In this document: in pieces, positions 10,602-15,992 of the stretch | Layout: every line of letters starts with the position of its first letter | Position numbering within the stretch: the first letter of the stretch is position 1 | From: Leeuwenhoekiella blandensis MED217 | Lineage (GTDB): Bacteria; Bacteroidota; Bacteroidia; Flavobacteriales; Flavobacteriaceae | Length of the DNA stretch: 64,000 nucleotides | Reading direction: 5' to 3' | Assembly (NCBI RefSeq): GCF_000152985.1 | Contig: NZ_CH672395.1 | Coordinates: 3,631,823-3,695,822 of the forward strand | The notes under the pieces: generated by a model | Database searches by the model: none | What the model was told of the DNA's origin: nothing | What the model saw: only the letters and a program-made list of their open reading frames with translations | Translations under genes and position numbers: made by a program

Positions 10602-10682
10602 AGTATTAAACTCCTTTGGCAGAGCCAATAAAAACACCAAGAGATAAGACTAGCAGGTATTTTACCTGTTGGCGTTGTCAAT

Positions 10683-10711
10683 AAAAAAGGCGCTCACTGA
10701 GCGCCTTTTTT
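10683..10711. terminator. Bidirectional terminator between the DUF4177-like gene and the aromatic operon
   Basis: GGCGCTC-ACT-GAGCGCC stem flanked by A6 on the left and T6 on the right, so it can stop transcription from both sides. It sits between a plus-strand gene and the 3' end of the minus-strand aromatic operon. Confidence 0.85.
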
Positions 10712-10732
10712 ATATTTACTATGTATAAAAGC

Positions 10733-11824
10733 CTAAGCTTCTTCCATTCTAGAAATTTTCTTCTGGTGATTGATCGATTCTTGGTGAATCGCTTTGAAAA
10801 CACGTAGAATAAATTCTTCACTCAAGTTGTGCTTCTCTCCTTCTAAGATCATTGCACCTAAAATCTCATTCCATCGTTTAGACTGAAGGATTGCAACGTT
10901 ATTTTCAGTTTTAAGTTCGCCTATAGCATCAGCGATCTTCATACGCTTCCCTAAACTTTCGATCAATTGATGATCAACTACATCGATCTGTGTACGCAGC
11001 GTATTCAGTTTATTATTGAATTCAGCAGCTGTCCCTTCTTCTTTACGAATTTTTAGATCTTTCATAATCTGCACCAAACTCGCCGGTGTGATTTGCTGTT
11101 TAGCATCACTCCACGCATTATCTGGATCGTAGTGGGTTTCAACCATGATTCCGTCGTAATTAAGATCAAGACCGGTCTGGCATAGATCAAAAATAATATC
11201 ACGACGCCCGGCGATATGTGATGGATCTAAAATTAATGGAAGGTCCGGAAACTGGTTTTGTAAATCAACAGCAACTTGCCATTCTGGATTGTTACGGTAA
11301 CGGGTTTTCTCATAGGTTGAGAAACCTCTGTGAATCACACCAAGATTTTTAACATCCTGCGTATAAAAACGCTCCACAGCCCCTAACCATAAAGCCAGAT
11401 CAGGATTCACCGGGTTTTTAATAAGAACTGTTTTATCTGTTCCTTTAAGCGCTTCTGCAATTTCTTGAATATTGAAAGGAGAAACGGTGGTACGTGCACC
11501 AATCCATAGAATATCTACATCGTGTTTTAACGCAAGCTCTACGTGATTAGGATTTGCAACCTCGGTAGTTGTAAGCATACCGGTTTCCTCTTTAGCTTTC
11601 TGAAGCCATTTCAAACCTAGCGCTCCCACACCTTCAAACATTCCCGGGCGGGTACGTGGTTTCCAGATTCCTGCTCTAAAAACAGTAGCATCTGTGTCTT
11701 TTAGCTCATGAGCAATTTTTAATACTTGCTCTTCAGTTTCTGCGCTACAAGGACCTGCGATTACAAGCGGATGATCCAGATTGAAAGCGTCTAACCAGTT
11801 TCTAAGTTCTTTCTTATTTTCCAT
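10733..11824 (-). CDS. Bifunctional 3-deoxy-7-phosphoheptulonate synthase / chorismate mutase
   Basis: N-terminal DAHP synthase (about 1-255; GPCSAETEEQ at 24-33, KPRTRPG at 55-61, DPSHIAGRRD near 200, VETHYDPD near 228) condenses PEP and erythrose-4-phosphate. A C-terminal type II chorismate mutase (about 268-355; LRTQIDVVDHQLIESLGKR) makes prephenate. This fusion order is common in Bacteroidota. It commits carbon to the shikimate pathway and steers chorismate to Phe/Tyr, which fits the operon. I chose the ATG at 11824 (363 residues); a TTG three codons upstream is possible. Last gene of the aromatic operon, 28 bases after tyrA. Confidence 0.92.
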   Translation of the reverse strand: MENKKELRNWLDAFNLDHPLVIAGPCSAETEEQVLKIAHELKDTDATVFRAGIWKPRTRPGMFEGVGALGLKWLQKAKEETGMLTTTEVANPNHVELALKHDVDILWIGARTTVSPFNIQEIAEALKGTDKTVLIKNPVNPDLALWLGAVERFYTQDVKNLGVIHRGFSTYEKTRYRNNPEWQVAVDLQNQFPDLPLILDPSHIAGRRDIIFDLCQTGLDLNYDGIMVETHYDPDNAWSDAKQQITPASLVQIMKDLKIRKEEGTAAEFNNKLNTLRTQIDVVDHQLIESLGKRMKIADAIGELKTENNVAILQSKRWNEILGAMILEGEKHNLSEEFILRVFKAIHQESINHQKKISRMEEA

Positions 11825-11852
11825 ATTCAACAAATTTACAGCTTTTAGCTGA

Positions 11853-12713
11853 TTACGATAATCCTTTAAGTATTGATTTTATGTGGTTTGTATTGTGCAT
11901 TTCATTAAAAACCTCTTCATAATTTTCGGCTTCTAGAACATTTTTGAAATGCGTTAAATTATTGATGTATTCGGTTAAGCTTTCCAGCACGTTAGCCTTA
12001 TTTTCTTTAAAAATAGGCGTCCAGGTTGCCGGATTACTTTTTGCCAGACGTACTGTGGAAGCAAATCCACTGCCTGCCATATCAAAAATATCTTTTTCGT
12101 TTTTCTCCTTTTCGATCACGGTTTTCCCCAGCATAAAGCTGCTGATGTGTGACAAATGCGAAACATAAGCAATATGCTTATCGTGCGAATGCGGATTCAT
12201 ATACCGAATTTGCATAGACAAGGCTTCAAAAATTTGCATGGCCTTTGCCAATAGATCTTCACGCGTTTGCTCTACCTCGCAAAGAATCATGGTTTTGTTT
12301 TTATACAAATTCTCGATCGCTGCTGAAGGTCCCGAAAATTCAGTTCCTGCAATGGGGTGTGCTGCCAAGAATTGATTGCGCTTGGGATGGTCTTGAACCG
12401 CATCACACACGCTGCCCTTAGTAGAACCCACATCCATCACCAAAGCATTGGGTGCAATCGCGTCTAAAACCGGTGGTAAAAATAAATTGGCTTGATCCAC
12501 AGGAATCGCCAAGATCACCAAATCTGCTTGGTTGATCGCTTCAAATCGTGCCGGATGATCGATCACGCCCAGACCAACGGCTTCATCCAGATGATCGTCA
12601 TTGTTATCAACCCCATAGATGGTACTCTCTGGCAACACGCGTTTTAAGTCACGTGCCAACGAACCTCCAATAAGTCCGATTCCTAGAACGAATATGTTTT
12701 TAAAATCTTCCAA
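11853..12713 (-). CDS. tyrA: Prephenate dehydrogenase
   Basis: NAD(P)-dependent oxidative decarboxylation of prephenate to 4-hydroxyphenylpyruvate, the tyrosine branch. The Rossmann motif GIGLIGGSLAR is at 11-21, followed by the conserved DVGSTKGSV, HPIAGTEFSG and the helical half with SHDKHIAYVSHLSH. 286 residues, without the extra C-terminal ACT domain seen in some relatives. The start is TTG (12713) and overlaps the end of the aminotransferase by 14 bases, indicating translational coupling in the operon. Confidence 0.92.
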   Translation of the reverse strand: MEDFKNIFVLGIGLIGGSLARDLKRVLPESTIYGVDNNDDHLDEAVGLGVIDHPARFEAINQADLVILAIPVDQANLFLPPVLDAIAPNALVMDVGSTKGSVCDAVQDHPKRNQFLAAHPIAGTEFSGPSAAIENLYKNKTMILCEVEQTREDLLAKAMQIFEALSMQIRYMNPHSHDKHIAYVSHLSHISSFMLGKTVIEKEKNEKDIFDMAGSGFASTVRLAKSNPATWTPIFKENKANVLESLTEYINNLTHFKNVLEAENYEEVFNEMHNTNHIKSILKGLS

Positions 12714-13848
12714 TGGCTTCTTTAATTTTATCTTCGGTTACACAAAGTGAAAAGCGAATGTACCCGGCTCCTTGTGAACCGAAAATACTTCCCGGCGTAA
12801 TAAACACGCTTTTATTGATCAAAATATCATCGATAAAAGCTTCGGCAGCTCCTGCTCCTTCGGGTAGTTTTGCCCAGACAAACATGCCAGCTGCATTTTT
12901 ATCGTAAGTGCACCCCAATACATCTGCCAGCTTCCATACTTGCTCACGGCGTTTTTCATAAATGGCGTTCAAGCCGTCGAACCACGCTTCTCCTTCAGTC
13001 AATACGGCTGCTGCGCCCTTTTGAATTCCGTAGAACATTCCGCTATCCATATTACTTTTTACAGTAAGCACCGTGCTTACATAGTCTGCAGCACCAAGCA
13101 ACATCCCAACACGCCATCCGCTCATATTGAAAGACTTACTCAAAGAGTTCAACTCAATAGCTACTTCTTTTGCTCCCGAAACGCTTAAAATGCTCTGCGG
13201 ATTTTCATTAAGAATGAAACTGTATGGATTGTCGTTTACTAAAAGAATCTCATTTGCTTTTGCAAACGCCACAAGCTTCTCAAAGTCGGCAGTAGTCGCT
13301 TTTGCTCCTGTAGGCATATGCGGATAGTTTACCCACATCAATTTCACCTTACTCAAATCTCTTTTTTCCAGAGCTGAATAATCAGGCATCCAATTATTTG
13401 AAGCGTCCAGATTGTAATAAACCGGCTCAGCTTCAACCAAACGCGTTACCGAAGTATAGGTTGGATACCCTGGATTCGGAATCAACACCTCGTCTCCCGG
13501 ATTCAGGAAAGCCATGCTGATGTGCATTATGCCTTCCTTTGATCCCATCAAGGGTAAAATTTCGTCTTCAGGATTTAGCGTTACCGCATATCGCTTTTGA
13601 TAAAAATCTGCCATAGCCTCAGTAAGCTGAGGAAGTCCTTTGTAACTCTGGTATTGATGTGCAGGCCCATCTACCAGCGAACTTGTCAAAGCTTTAATGA
13701 CGTGTGGCGGCGGAGCCAGATCGGGACTACCAATACCCATATTGATTATAGGTTTCCCGGCAGCTGCAAGAGCACGCACTTCTTTTAGCTTACGCGAAAA
13801 GTAGTACTCAGAAGTTTGGTTAAGCCTGTTAGCCGATGCTATAATCAT
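12700..13848 (-). CDS. Class I/II pyridoxal-phosphate aminotransferase of the aromatic operon
   Basis: 382-residue fold-type I aminotransferase. PLP lysine is Lys238 in NSLSKSFNMSGWR, with the cofactor-binding Tyr/Asp segment VNDNPYSF and the motif NYPHMPTGA, where the usual Asn-Asn reads His-Met. Position between pheA and tyrA strongly suggests it transaminates phenylpyruvate and 4-hydroxyphenylpyruvate (or prephenate). By sequence alone it could also be taken for an aspartate or LL-diaminopimelate type enzyme. It overlaps pheA by 4 bases and tyrA by 14 bases. Confidence 0.85.
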   Translation of the reverse strand: MIIASANRLNQTSEYYFSRKLKEVRALAAAGKPIINMGIGSPDLAPPPHVIKALTSSLVDGPAHQYQSYKGLPQLTEAMADFYQKRYAVTLNPEDEILPLMGSKEGIMHISMAFLNPGDEVLIPNPGYPTYTSVTRLVEAEPVYYNLDASNNWMPDYSALEKRDLSKVKLMWVNYPHMPTGAKATTADFEKLVAFAKANEILLVNDNPYSFILNENPQSILSVSGAKEVAIELNSLSKSFNMSGWRVGMLLGAADYVSTVLTVKSNMDSGMFYGIQKGAAAVLTEGEAWFDGLNAIYEKRREQVWKLADVLGCTYDKNAAGMFVWAKLPEGAGAAEAFIDDILINKSVFITPGSIFGSQGAGYIRFSLCVTEDKIKEAIGRF

Positions 13849-14669
13849 GATTTTCTGTTTTTATATTCACCAAGAATTTTAAATTCCTGAGCCATAATAT
13901 CTAATAGTTTTTTAGCCTTTTCAAAATCTGCATAATCCTCAAAGGTTACATCTACGAAAAACGAATATTTCCAAGGCGTTTCAATGACTGGGAGCGACTG
14001 AATCTTGGTCAGATTGAGCCTGCAATCACTCATTACATTTAAAACCGCAGCGAGGCTTCCGCGTTTGTGATCGGTCAAAAATTTAACCGAAGCTTTATCG
14101 GGAACATCTGCCTCTGTACGTCCGTTAGTATTCAGCACAAAAAAGCGTGTTGAATTGTCTTTAATGGTCTGAATATCGTGAGCGATGACATCTAACCCAT
14201 AAATTGAGGCCGCTGTAGTTCCGGCAATAGCCCCTATTCCTTTCAAGTTTCCATCAGCAATTCGCTTTGCAGCACCTGCAGTATCATCATCTTCTACCAG
14301 CCTAATGTGTTCTTTATCCTTAAAGAATTCTTTACACTGCAAAAGCGCCATAGGATGCGACCACACTTCGTGAATATCTTCAAGCTTCTGGCCCGGCATC
14401 ACCATTAAATTTTGACTTATGGCTAAGTAGCGCTCTCCTTCAATATTTAAATTATGATGATCGAGTAAAGCATAATTGGGGATAATGCTTCCTGCAATAG
14501 AATTTTCAATCGCCATTACCGCATCGGTCGCCTCTCCCCTTATAAGTCTATTCACCAACTCTTGAAAGCTATTGCAATCAATCACTTCAACATCTTCACT
14601 AAAAAAATCCTGAGCGACTTTATGGTGAAAAGACCCTTTAATTCCTTGTATGGCTACTTTGTGTTTCAA
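13845..14669 (-). CDS. pheA: Prephenate dehydratase
   Basis: Converts prephenate to phenylpyruvate. The catalytic half carries VMAIENSIAGS and the essential Thr-Arg-Phe in NSTRFFVLN (Thr174). A C-terminal ACT domain (about 195-274, GSLAAVLNVMSDC) would bind Phe. Its usual ESRP-like motif reads QSLP here, so sensitivity to Phe may differ. Length 274. The start is a TTG at 14669 with no nearby in-frame ATG. First structural gene of the aromatic operon, preceded by the attenuator-like leader at 14692-14824. Confidence 0.92.
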   Translation of the reverse strand: MKHKVAIQGIKGSFHHKVAQDFFSEDVEVIDCNSFQELVNRLIRGEATDAVMAIENSIAGSIIPNYALLDHHNLNIEGERYLAISQNLMVMPGQKLEDIHEVWSHPMALLQCKEFFKDKEHIRLVEDDDTAGAAKRIADGNLKGIGAIAGTTAASIYGLDVIAHDIQTIKDNSTRFFVLNTNGRTEADVPDKASVKFLTDHKRGSLAAVLNVMSDCRLNLTKIQSLPVIETPWKYSFFVDVTFEDYADFEKAKKLLDIMAQEFKILGEYKNRKS

Positions 14670-14691
14670 CTGTTTAGCTTCGGTTTATAAC

Positions 14692-14720
14692 AAAAAAAAT
14701 CCCGATTTTTTAAATCGGGA
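14692..14720 (-). terminator. Attenuator terminator in the leader of the aromatic operon
   Basis: On the minus strand a perfect 9-bp stem TCCCGATTT / AAATCGGGA with a 3-base loop (14700-14720) runs into eight T (14692-14699), only 23 bases before the pheA start codon. A terminator placed directly in front of the operon it belongs to makes sense only if it is conditional. Its left arm (UCCC, 14717-14720) can alternatively pair, within GGUCCC (14717-14722), with GGGGCC (14760-14765) at the end of the leader ORF, which would block the hairpin. Confidence 0.8.
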
Positions 14721-14752
14721 CCCTATATGATATTGTAATACTATACGTTACT

Positions 14753-14824
14753 CTATAGCGGCCCCATCTCTTTCCAGAAGAAAAAGAAGTAATAGCGGTT
14801 ATAAAAATAAAGTACGTTAGACAT
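14753..14824 (-). CDS. Phe/Tyr-rich leader peptide of the aromatic operon
   Basis: Short ORF of 23 codons from ATG 14824 to TAG 14753, upstream of the terminator and of pheA. Ten of 23 residues are aromatic: Tyr-Phe-Tyr at 6-8, and Tyr-Tyr-Phe-Phe-Phe-Phe-Trp at 11-17; the last residues are KEMGPL. Such a run of regulatory codons, followed by a terminator and an alternative pairing segment, is the arrangement of ribosome-mediated attenuators like pheL or hisL. The operon makes exactly these amino acids. A promoter-like CTAAAGTA on the plus strand (14845-14852, read TACTTTAG) deviates from the consensus. Confidence 0.8.
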   Translation of the reverse strand: MSNVLYFYNRYYFFFFWKEMGPL

Positions 14825-15098
14825 GTGTTTCTTTTATTATGCTGCTAAAGTAACTAATTAATTAAGAACAGCTTTAAAAGCCTTCTATTTTTACAGATAT
14901 CCAATCATTATCGCCCAATGATTAAATAAAACAGAATATAACCCAAAGATTAAGGTTCTTTATTAGAAGATTTTCTACAAAGACATTCATCTTGCGCTGC
15001 GCATACTACGACATAAGTAATTTTAAGGTTTTAAAAACAGTAGGCTGAAGGCTAAATGTGTAATTTTAGACTTTAAACCTGCTCCAATTCTACATACT

Positions 15099-15992
15099 AT
15101 GTCTATTAAGGTATCTCAGGTATCTAAATTTTACAACGACCAAAAGGCACTGGATGAAGTCTCTTTTACTGTAAACAAAGGCGAAGTCACCGGTTTCTTG
15201 GGACCAAACGGCGCAGGAAAGAGTACGATGATGAAAATCTTGACCACGTATCTCAAAGCTTCATCAGGAACGACCAGCGTAAATAACTTTTCAACCCAGG
15301 AAGAAGCTTTAGCCGTGAGACGCAGTGTGGGATATTTAGCTGAAAATAATCCGCTGTATCCTGAAATGTACATCAGAGAGTATTTAAAATTACACGCTGA
15401 CTTGAACAAAGCGCCTAAGGAGCGTATTGAAACTGTAATCGAACTCACCGGATTACAACCCGAGATTTCTAAGAGAATAAAACAGCTAAGTAAAGGATAT
15501 AAACAACGCGTAGGTTTGGCCGCAGCATTGATCCACGATCCTGAAGTACTTATTTTAGACGAACCCACAACCGGACTAGACCCTAATCAGCTGCGGGAAA
15601 TACGCGCGCTCATAAGAACTGTAGGCAAATCAAAAACGGTCTTACTTTCTACGCATATCATGCAAGAAGTAGAAGCCGTGTGTGATCGTGTAATAATCAT
15701 CAATAAAGGAAAAATCGTAGCAGATAAAAAACTGGAAGAACTCAATACCAGTACAGAGCAAATCATTGTCGTAGAATTTGATTACCGCATAGAGATCGAA
15801 TTATTGCAGCAACTAGATCGTGTAGCAGAAGTAACCAATACCATTGGTTTTGTATACGAAATGACCTTTGATACCTCGCAAGATATGCGCCCGGCTATTT
15901 TTGATTTTGCTCACGATAACGGCTTAAAAATTCTCCAGCTTAATAAAAAGAATACTTCGCTTGAACAGCTTTTTCAGCAACTCACAAACTAA
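15099..15992 (+). CDS. gldA: Gliding-motility ABC transporter ATP-binding subunit GldA
   Basis: 297-residue ABC ATPase: Walker A GPNGAGKST at 35-43, signature LSKGYKQR, Walker B VLILDEPTTGLD, and the H-loop STHIM. The N-terminus MSIKVSQVSKFYNDQKALDEV and the length are those of GldA, which with GldF/GldG forms an ABC transporter needed for gliding and surface movement in Flavobacteriia; GldF/G are not in this window. The C-terminal 80 residues after the ATPase are typical of the family. A 7-bp inverted repeat (AATCATT/AATGATT) at 14903-14923 is the only structure seen in the upstream gap. Confidence 0.85.
   Translation: MSIKVSQVSKFYNDQKALDEVSFTVNKGEVTGFLGPNGAGKSTMMKILTTYLKASSGTTSVNNFSTQEEALAVRRSVGYLAENNPLYPEMYIREYLKLHADLNKAPKERIETVIELTGLQPEISKRIKQLSKGYKQRVGLAAALIHDPEVLILDEPTTGLDPNQLREIRALIRTVGKSKTVLLSTHIMQEVEAVCDRVIIINKGKIVADKKLEELNTSTEQIIVVEFDYRIEIELLQQLDRVAEVTNTIGFVYEMTFDTSQDMRPAIFDFAHDNGLKILQLNKKNTSLEQLFQQLTN

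Follow-up and report, generated by a model that had tools for sequence, protein, structure and literature searches.

Leeuwenhoekiella blandensis MED217 carries, on the minus strand of the 64,000-nucleotide stretch of DNA analysed here (the window), an operon for the phenylalanine and tyrosine branches, which also encodes the one DAHP synthase that the genome was found to have, and we are confident, if short of certain, that this operon is controlled by a ribosome-mediated transcription attenuator, whose leader most likely acts as a sensor of Phe/Tyr starvation. The parts of the attenuator, their conservation, pairing and spacing, the exchange of Phe and Tyr in its leader and the change of leader codons with the pathway can be seen in the sequences compared, and the strongest support for reading them as an attenuator comes from recoded leaders in genomes that lack pheA.

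The leader and the aromatic operon in the window

The operon runs in the order pheA, class I/II aminotransferase, tyrA and DAHP synthase/chorismate mutase, and is preceded on the same strand by a leader ORF, a gap of 28 nt and a terminator ending in T8, directly before pheA. The features, in the direction of transcription, are as follows.

14845..14852, minus strand: promoter -7-like element TACTTTAG, presumably of the Bacteroidota type (from its sequence and the family comparison)
14753..14824, minus strand: leader ORF MSNVLYFYNRYYFFFFWKEMGPL followed by a stop codon, with putative control codons Tyr11 to Phe16; the unit occurs in 147 of 149 family loci
14807..14814, minus strand: segment 1, leader codons 4-6, UACUUUAU, predicted 5' arm of the 1:2 helix (from folding and a group test against swapped and shuffled sequences)
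14766..14788, minus strand: predicted inner hairpin, Phe codons 13-16 with Lys-Glu codons (from the minimum free energy fold and a comparison of 71 loci)
14754..14765, minus strand: segment 2, GGGGCCGCUAUA, 5' arm of the antiterminator (from sequence, arm-swap test and energies)
14749..14756, minus strand: predicted 3' arm of the 1:2 helix, AUAGAGUA, which spans the stop codon (from folding)
14717..14727, minus strand: segment 3, UAUAGGGUCCC, common to antiterminator and terminator (from sequence, arm-swap test and energies)
14692..14724, minus strand: intrinsic terminator (3:4) with T8; its consensus structure has both-sided changes in 8 of 9 pairs
13845..14669, minus strand: pheA, prephenate dehydratase (PF00800), TTG start as listed
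12700..13848, minus strand: class I/II aminotransferase (PF00155, a domain match)
11853..12713, minus strand: tyrA, prephenate dehydrogenase (NF006307, above cut-off)
10733..11833, minus strand: DAHP synthase-chorismate mutase fusion (PF00793 and PF01817 above the Pfam cut-offs, below the NCBIfam equivalog cut-offs)

The 23 codons of the leader (14824-14753) include 5 Phe, 4 Tyr and 1 Trp. The terminator stem, TCCCGATTT-AAA-AAATCGGGA followed by T8 (14720-14692), is a perfect helix of 9 bp, which grows to 13 pairs with its AU/GU extension, and GGGGCC at 14765-14760 within the leader can pair with GGUCCC at 14722-14717, giving an alternative helix of 6 bp that a UAUA:UAUA pairing can lengthen. 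A preliminary description of this DNA had given the ORF and its aromatic content correctly to the base, and the perfect terminator with T8, the alternative helix and its UAUA extension were all found again where it had placed them.

Among the 624 ATG ORFs of 12-40 codons on both strands of the window, the leader alone reaches 40% aromatic residues, a share attained by 27 of 18,313 ORFs in a Markov simulation of 20 windows; on these grounds, together with its conservation, a chance origin of the leader was rejected. The idea that the terminator marks the end of the upstream gene was also rejected, since that gene is divergent. The -7 element TACTTTAG, which we assign to the Bacteroidota type on what we take to be the consensus, lies 28 nt ahead of the leader ATG. 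Of 144 family loci, 136 have a TAnnTT[TA]G motif in the 50 nt preceding their leader ATG, and 5 have one in the control stretch, which lies 100-150 nt upstream.

PF00793 has two matches in the genome, KdsA (L254) and the operon's own DAHP synthase, and a search of the genome for a class II DAHP synthase found none, so that the operon carries the only DAHP synthase found, a point missing from the preliminary description; two PF00793 matches are also what most of the 199 family genomes hold. The order pheA, aminotransferase, tyrA, DAHP synthase-chorismate mutase is kept in 111 of the 116 loci with enough sequence, and the PheA of the window matches that of Leeuwenhoekiella palythoae, the nearest named relative given, at 97%. 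Just downstream of the DAHP synthase gene, a strong hairpin with a T-rich flank (10681-10713, listed on the plus strand) probably marks the end of the operon.

Leader ORF, terminator, 2:3 helix, 1:2 helix and codon placement, by which attenuators of the trp/his/phe type are recognized, are all present in the sequence, and from them we infer translation of the leader, stalling and readthrough. A ribosome would begin on the leader soon after transcription starts. With charged tRNA-Phe and tRNA-Tyr plentiful, it would reach the stop codon and cover segment 2, and the terminator (3:4) would form. Were tRNA-Phe or tRNA-Tyr short, the ribosome would stall with one of codons 11-16 in its A site, covering segment 1 and with its front edge ending just before segment 2; segment 2, left free, would then pair with segment 3 ahead of the synthesis of segment 4, letting polymerase enter pheA-tyrA-aroG. 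On an untranslated leader the 1:2 helix would hold segment 2, and the terminator would form. In other leaders of the family, Trp codons may add a third input.

The spacing is consistent with such stalling. In the window, Phe16 lies 11 nt and Trp17 8 nt from GGGGCC, and in 111 of 146 family loci the distance from the last aromatic codon to the arm, with the best helix counted as the arm, is 9-11 nt, about the length by which a ribosome overhangs at its front. With a ribosome modelled at Tyr11, Phe13 and Phe16, the 2:3 region folds at -20.3, -18.8 and -19.0 kcal/mol, respectively, against -13.8 kcal/mol for the terminator alone, and once the stop codon is in the A site, the terminator is the only fold left. 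Codons 11-16, which the preliminary description had named as the stall window, are therefore the right ones according to the model, as stalls there fold the antiterminator and a ribosome at the stop does not. A modelled stall at Trp17 weakens the antiterminator (-11.5 kcal/mol), and is predicted to come too late to act in the window.

Over 71 loci, the mean ddG between 2:3 and 3:4 ranged from -0.4 to 0.2 with the ribosome at positions -5 to -1 and rose to 1.1 at position 0, 6.1 at +1 and 9.7 at +2, the 2:3 region losing parity with 3:4 once the ribosome passes the last aromatic codon. The equilibrium fold keeps the terminator in 53-56 of the 71 loci for stalls at -5 to -1 and, for a stall at position 0, in 66 of them; the choice must therefore be kinetic in most genomes, and the window is a case in which the antiterminator wins outright at equilibrium.

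Conservation and pairing across the family and the class

PheA turned up in 178 of the 199 family genomes. The 149 loci examined exclude the weakest PheA matches and a listed place lying at the edge of a contig. A script that looked through the 500 nt ahead of pheA called an ATG ORF rich in Phe and Tyr, with an intrinsic terminator after it, in 146 of the 149 loci, and a 147th carries its leader 510 nt upstream (L112, seen in L274); from the other two, L133 and L146, the unit is absent. When the script was run again with its score changed slightly and the ORFs capped at 40 residues, it called 145 of 149. The same script called nothing on the opposite strand (0/149), inside pheA (0/149) or 500-1000 nt upstream (0/59), and the unit was present in all four additional loci from the family. 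The preliminary description had proposed looking upstream of pheA in other Flavobacteriaceae for an aromatic ORF and a terminator, and both are there in 147 of 149 loci; because of this conservation we regard the leader ORF as real. Ten Leeuwenhoekiella sequences keep the Tyr-Tyr-Phe4 cluster and the arms, with Trp17 replaced by Ile in one; their early leader codons vary, as does the pairing predicted for these.

In L112/L274, the ~500 nt between the leader terminator and pheA hold repeated hairpin-like stretches of the form ATCCCGC...GCGGGAT.

Outside the family, in the order and the class, the unit was found in 37 of 56 loci and was absent from 19. Of the 37, the script called 35, and two that it had missed (L191 and L236) were recognized by eye; two artefacts, a 118-residue ORF (L158) and an ORF without a start codon (L245), were removed from the count, and the opposite strand gave one call in 56. 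The arms differ there and partly still match (GACCGC:GCGGTC, CCTGCC:GGCAGG, CCCGGC:GCCGGG, TCCCGC:GCGGGA), pairing at six of six positions in 16 of 35 loci, a count of native arms alone.

We also built a covariance model, R1, whose one helix is the terminator, the rest of its score coming from leader sequence, and which its source genomes match by construction. At E<2e-4 it matched 51 of 60 family genomes. Among these 60, pheA is present in 51 genomes, 49 of which had such a match. Twenty matched places were fetched, and several of those with E>0.001 resemble ordinary terminators. A search for GGGGCC over the whole genome proved too unspecific.

Alignments were made with MAFFT and a DNA aligner. 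RNAalifold recovered only the terminator from alignment A1, because segment 2 is shifted between clades there, and for the same reason the pairing was tested without that alignment, in windows placed from the leader peptide and with swapped arms as the control. An exact Watson-Crick 6-mer complementary to the left terminator arm was present in the leader window of 58 of 146 loci, compared with 4.4% for the arm of another genome and 0.3% for shuffled sequence, and allowing GU pairs raised these figures to 112 of 146, 26% and 6.6%. Among non-redundant loci the exact match held in 22 of 71 (swapped arms 3.6%) and the match with GU in 45 of 71 (swapped 24.8%). A first count of the 2:3 helix had picked the best helix and was hence biased, shuffles attaining the observed score in 8%. 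An exchange of CCC and CTC arms on the tree gave five contrasting pairs overall, two of them on supported branches, and a sign test was not significant.

The 1:2 helix, absent from the preliminary description, folds in the window at -17.3 kcal/mol (codons 4-6 with the stop region). Judged from the 71 loci it is a group effect: the mean score was 15.5 for native sequences versus 12.5 for both swapped and shuffled ones (p ~1e-11, relatedness not corrected), a strong helix was found in 35 of 71 loci as 35 different helices, and the native helix fell in the top tenth in only 37% of the loci against swapped sequences and in 42% against shuffles. The inner hairpin, which pairs Phe codons with downstream codons of the Lys/Arg type, had a mean score of 14.4 in native sequences, 12.1 in swapped and 11.9 in shuffled ones over the same number of loci. 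As the 1:2 helix holds the antiterminator strand, an untranslated leader should terminate, and modelling such leaders gave the terminator fold in 70 of 71 loci.

Amino acids probably sensed through the leader codons

Phe and Tyr both occur in all 146 family leaders. The position just before the last aromatic one is aromatic in every leader (146/146) and each of the next two in 144 of 146, and on the PheA tree Phe and Tyr have switched at least 12 to 21 times per position, with other residues rare at the control positions. Such exchange is to be expected of a leader on which shortage of either amino acid can stall the ribosome.

Genomes of the family that lack pheA show what becomes of the leader when the pathway differs. 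PheA is missing from 21 of the 199 (20 listed, with G165 inferred to be the unlisted one), and PF00800 was found in none of the 21. Sixteen keep the DAHP synthase-chorismate mutase gene, and 14 loci (L279-L292) were usable, having at least 400 nt upstream of it. In seven of the 14, a leader and a terminator precede the DAHP synthase gene, now with Trp in the leader (MIITVQKHPILIRWRHSLNCC, MFRVITHLVSCNWWLQLKNCR, MTTRSNFWWHHITN, MIMKPIYNFSKAWWHMFQNIR, MKTAHKNNSTIWWYIDQR, MYNTSLYWWHPYKL and MTNNNTWWSNSKFYLKR). Trp-Trp occurs in six of these seven versus none of the 146 pheA leaders, and Phe plus Tyr number 0-3 per leader versus at least 6. A match to the terminator arm of 6-7 bp was found in five of the seven and one of only 4 bp in L281 and L283. 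In a quick DAHP synthase tree the seven fall in two groups, which therefore count as two recoding events and not seven. The other seven loci (L285-L290 and L292) have no leader/terminator unit before the DAHP synthase gene.

Two of the pheA-less loci, L286 and L287, carry one in-frame stop each in the DAHP synthase-chorismate mutase gene, and in L286 the ORF MRLFSYNSQSFYFIS, with a weak terminator, may be the remnant of a Phe/Tyr leader.

A second kind of leader was found directly before the gene for a short phenylalanine hydroxylase. In both of the pheA-less genomes concerned (G042 and G089) this gene is preceded by a Tyr-rich leader and a terminator; the leaders, MKNLNNTYYYYPILTRRIGQ and MKTNRIYTIYMYTFYHRWRAR (loci L259/L298 and L301), hold four Tyr each, with 0 and 1 Phe, and are apparent tyrosine attenuators. 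No such leader precedes the short hydroxylase gene in the five genomes that have it together with pheA (0/5), and among long-form hydroxylase genes, of which 19 of 23 given loci were viewed, no Tyr-rich leader with a terminator was seen, a few of the 19 loci having short ORFs with two or three Tyr. Both the Trp and the Tyr leaders were chosen by eye from listed short ORFs, and their arms were judged on the native sequences alone. These examples speak for codons that report whichever product is still made, and for the ability of Tyr codons to sense.

Whether the leader also reports shortage of Trp is a question on which we incline a little towards no. Such a third input would make sense because the operon holds the only DAHP synthase detected in the genome, and 94 of the 146 leaders contain Trp. 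It accounts for 95 of 3447 leader residues, its usual places, counted from the last aromatic codon, being -5 and -9/-10, and Trp-Trp leaders occur where the DAHP synthase is kept without pheA. Against this, 52 of the 146 leaders have no Trp and its presence has changed at least 25 times on the tree; the model predicts no effect of Trp17 in the window, which lies 8 nt from the arm; and trpE in this genome has a Trp leader and terminator of its own (MKNKTVNTWWWISQQ, L256:1302-1419), which match Bacteroid-trp (RF01692) with 56 bits, the cut-off being 49.

An attenuator that answers to Phe alone, the Tyr codons being merely tolerated neighbours one base away from Phe with no sensing of Tyr, seems unlikely to us. 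Phe does prevail at the three positions nearest the arm (123, 131 and 121 of 146), and the account of the Corynebacterium glutamicum aroR leader in PMC11802643 has it responding to Phe and not to Tyr; as a Phe-Tyr-Phe leader can thus answer to Phe only, Tyr codons by themselves do not prove Tyr sensing. However, Tyr is found in every one of the 146 leaders and occupies position -3 in 112, the operon makes Tyr too, and the two pheA-less relatives described above have Tyr-rich leaders and terminators before phenylalanine hydroxylase.

Control of the same terminator by a riboswitch, a T-box or an RNA-binding protein, with no need of leader translation, we consider most improbable. A terminator between promoter and pheA would suit any system of premature termination, but no riboswitch or T-box of Rfam matched positions 14500-15150 at E values up to 1, where the two matches obtained, the rimP leader (23.6 of 47 bits) and NsiR1 (19.3 of 39 bits), were far below their cut-offs, and such control predicts neither aromatic codons 9-11 nt before the arm nor the different codons of pheA-less genomes. 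That the ORF encodes a functional small Phe/Tyr-rich, perhaps membrane, peptide whose gene ends near a terminator by coincidence has barely any credibility left, for although the peptide is hydrophobic and conserved across the family, Phe and Tyr interchange at the control positions, its 3' codons match the terminator arm, and Trp- or Tyr-rich versions appear where the downstream gene set differs.

Known attenuators and implications for the Bacteroidota

The mechanism proposed for these leaders is classical, textbook ribosome-mediated attenuation. In Escherichia coli, pheL-pheA (RF01859) likewise has a Phe-rich leader and a terminator before pheA, with stalling picking the antiterminator; the leader in the window differs in having both Phe and Tyr codons, in its probable control of pheA, an aminotransferase, tyrA and DAHP synthase, and in belonging to a different phylum. 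RF01859 has no match in 14500-15150 at E values up to 1, and of ten loci scanned only L234, from the Flavobacteriales outside the family, matched it, with 34.3 bits and below the 55-bit cut-off.

The Bacteroid-trp leader RNA (RF01692), listed in the motif table of PMC2864571, is a peptide-leader RNA of the Bacteroidota like ours, and the trpE gene of the same genome has one; it differs in its Trp codons, its arms and its operon, and gave no match to the pheA leader of the window or to the other pheA leaders scanned. In C. glutamicum, the aroR leader precedes the aroF (DAHP synthase) operon, where Phe limitation acts and Tyr limitation does not (Neshat et al. 2014, as related in PMC11802643). 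According to that source it has a Phe-Tyr-Phe leader peptide and ribosome-mediated attenuation as well; it is actinobacterial and responds to Phe only, whereas the leader in the window has a long aromatic cluster and would control both branches. For Flavobacterium psychrophilum, PMC9723704 (2021) mentions a structured 5' element ahead of pheA that is also conserved outside the genus, in other genera, and has no Rfam match, and it suggests leader-peptide attenuation for amino-acid operons in general. This pheA element is very probably the same as that in the window, judging by the main-text passages of that paper, which give no sequence, codons or arms for it and no role for Tyr or Trp.

The preliminary description had called a combined Phe/Tyr leader for such an operon in a flavobacterium little described. 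This holds for the two-amino-acid reading, which is new, and less so for the element itself, given the pheA 5' element of PMC9723704 and the precedent of aroR in the part of the literature at hand. Beyond PMC9723704, the literature searched yielded no Phe/Tyr leader in Bacteroidota, though an earlier mention in comparative genomics is possible; nor did it contain the anatomy presented here, a reading of two amino acids, the distribution of the unit across the class or the recoding of its codons.

Two further leaders with terminators were noticed. In L270, a Thr/Ile-rich leader (MRQSNITTTIITSIP) resembles that of the threonine operon, and the gene downstream of it is presumably an aspartokinase/homoserine dehydrogenase. 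In L277, a Met- and Cys-rich leader (MNKNLNIMCRCMMCINYAGDTIV) with a possible antiterminator arm is possibly a Met/Cys attenuator, and precedes what we take to be an O-acetylhomoserine sulfhydrylase gene.

To our knowledge, the control of amino-acid synthesis in Bacteroidota is poorly charted. On balance, and by a modest preference, we suggest that the Bacteroidota possess an old, recodable aromatic leader sensor, which answers to either Phe or Tyr, and in many species to Trp as well, and which sits on the operon of the sole DAHP synthase; its codons would change with the pathway, becoming Trp-Trp in lineages that lose pheA, and phenylalanine hydroxylase would acquire a Tyr leader where it becomes the sole source of Tyr. 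If this suggestion is true, the leader codons predict which amino acid a lineage must still make. The proposed attenuator itself offers a concrete, family-wide mechanism for the control of the aromatic pathway, and an unusual one, in that two and perhaps three amino acids would be monitored by a single leader and its terminator. The pheA-less genomes amount to a natural experiment, the sensor codons changing along with the enzymes. The system makes it testable how a single leader weighs several amino acids, and may offer, from sequence alone, a hint of auxotrophy in uncultured species.
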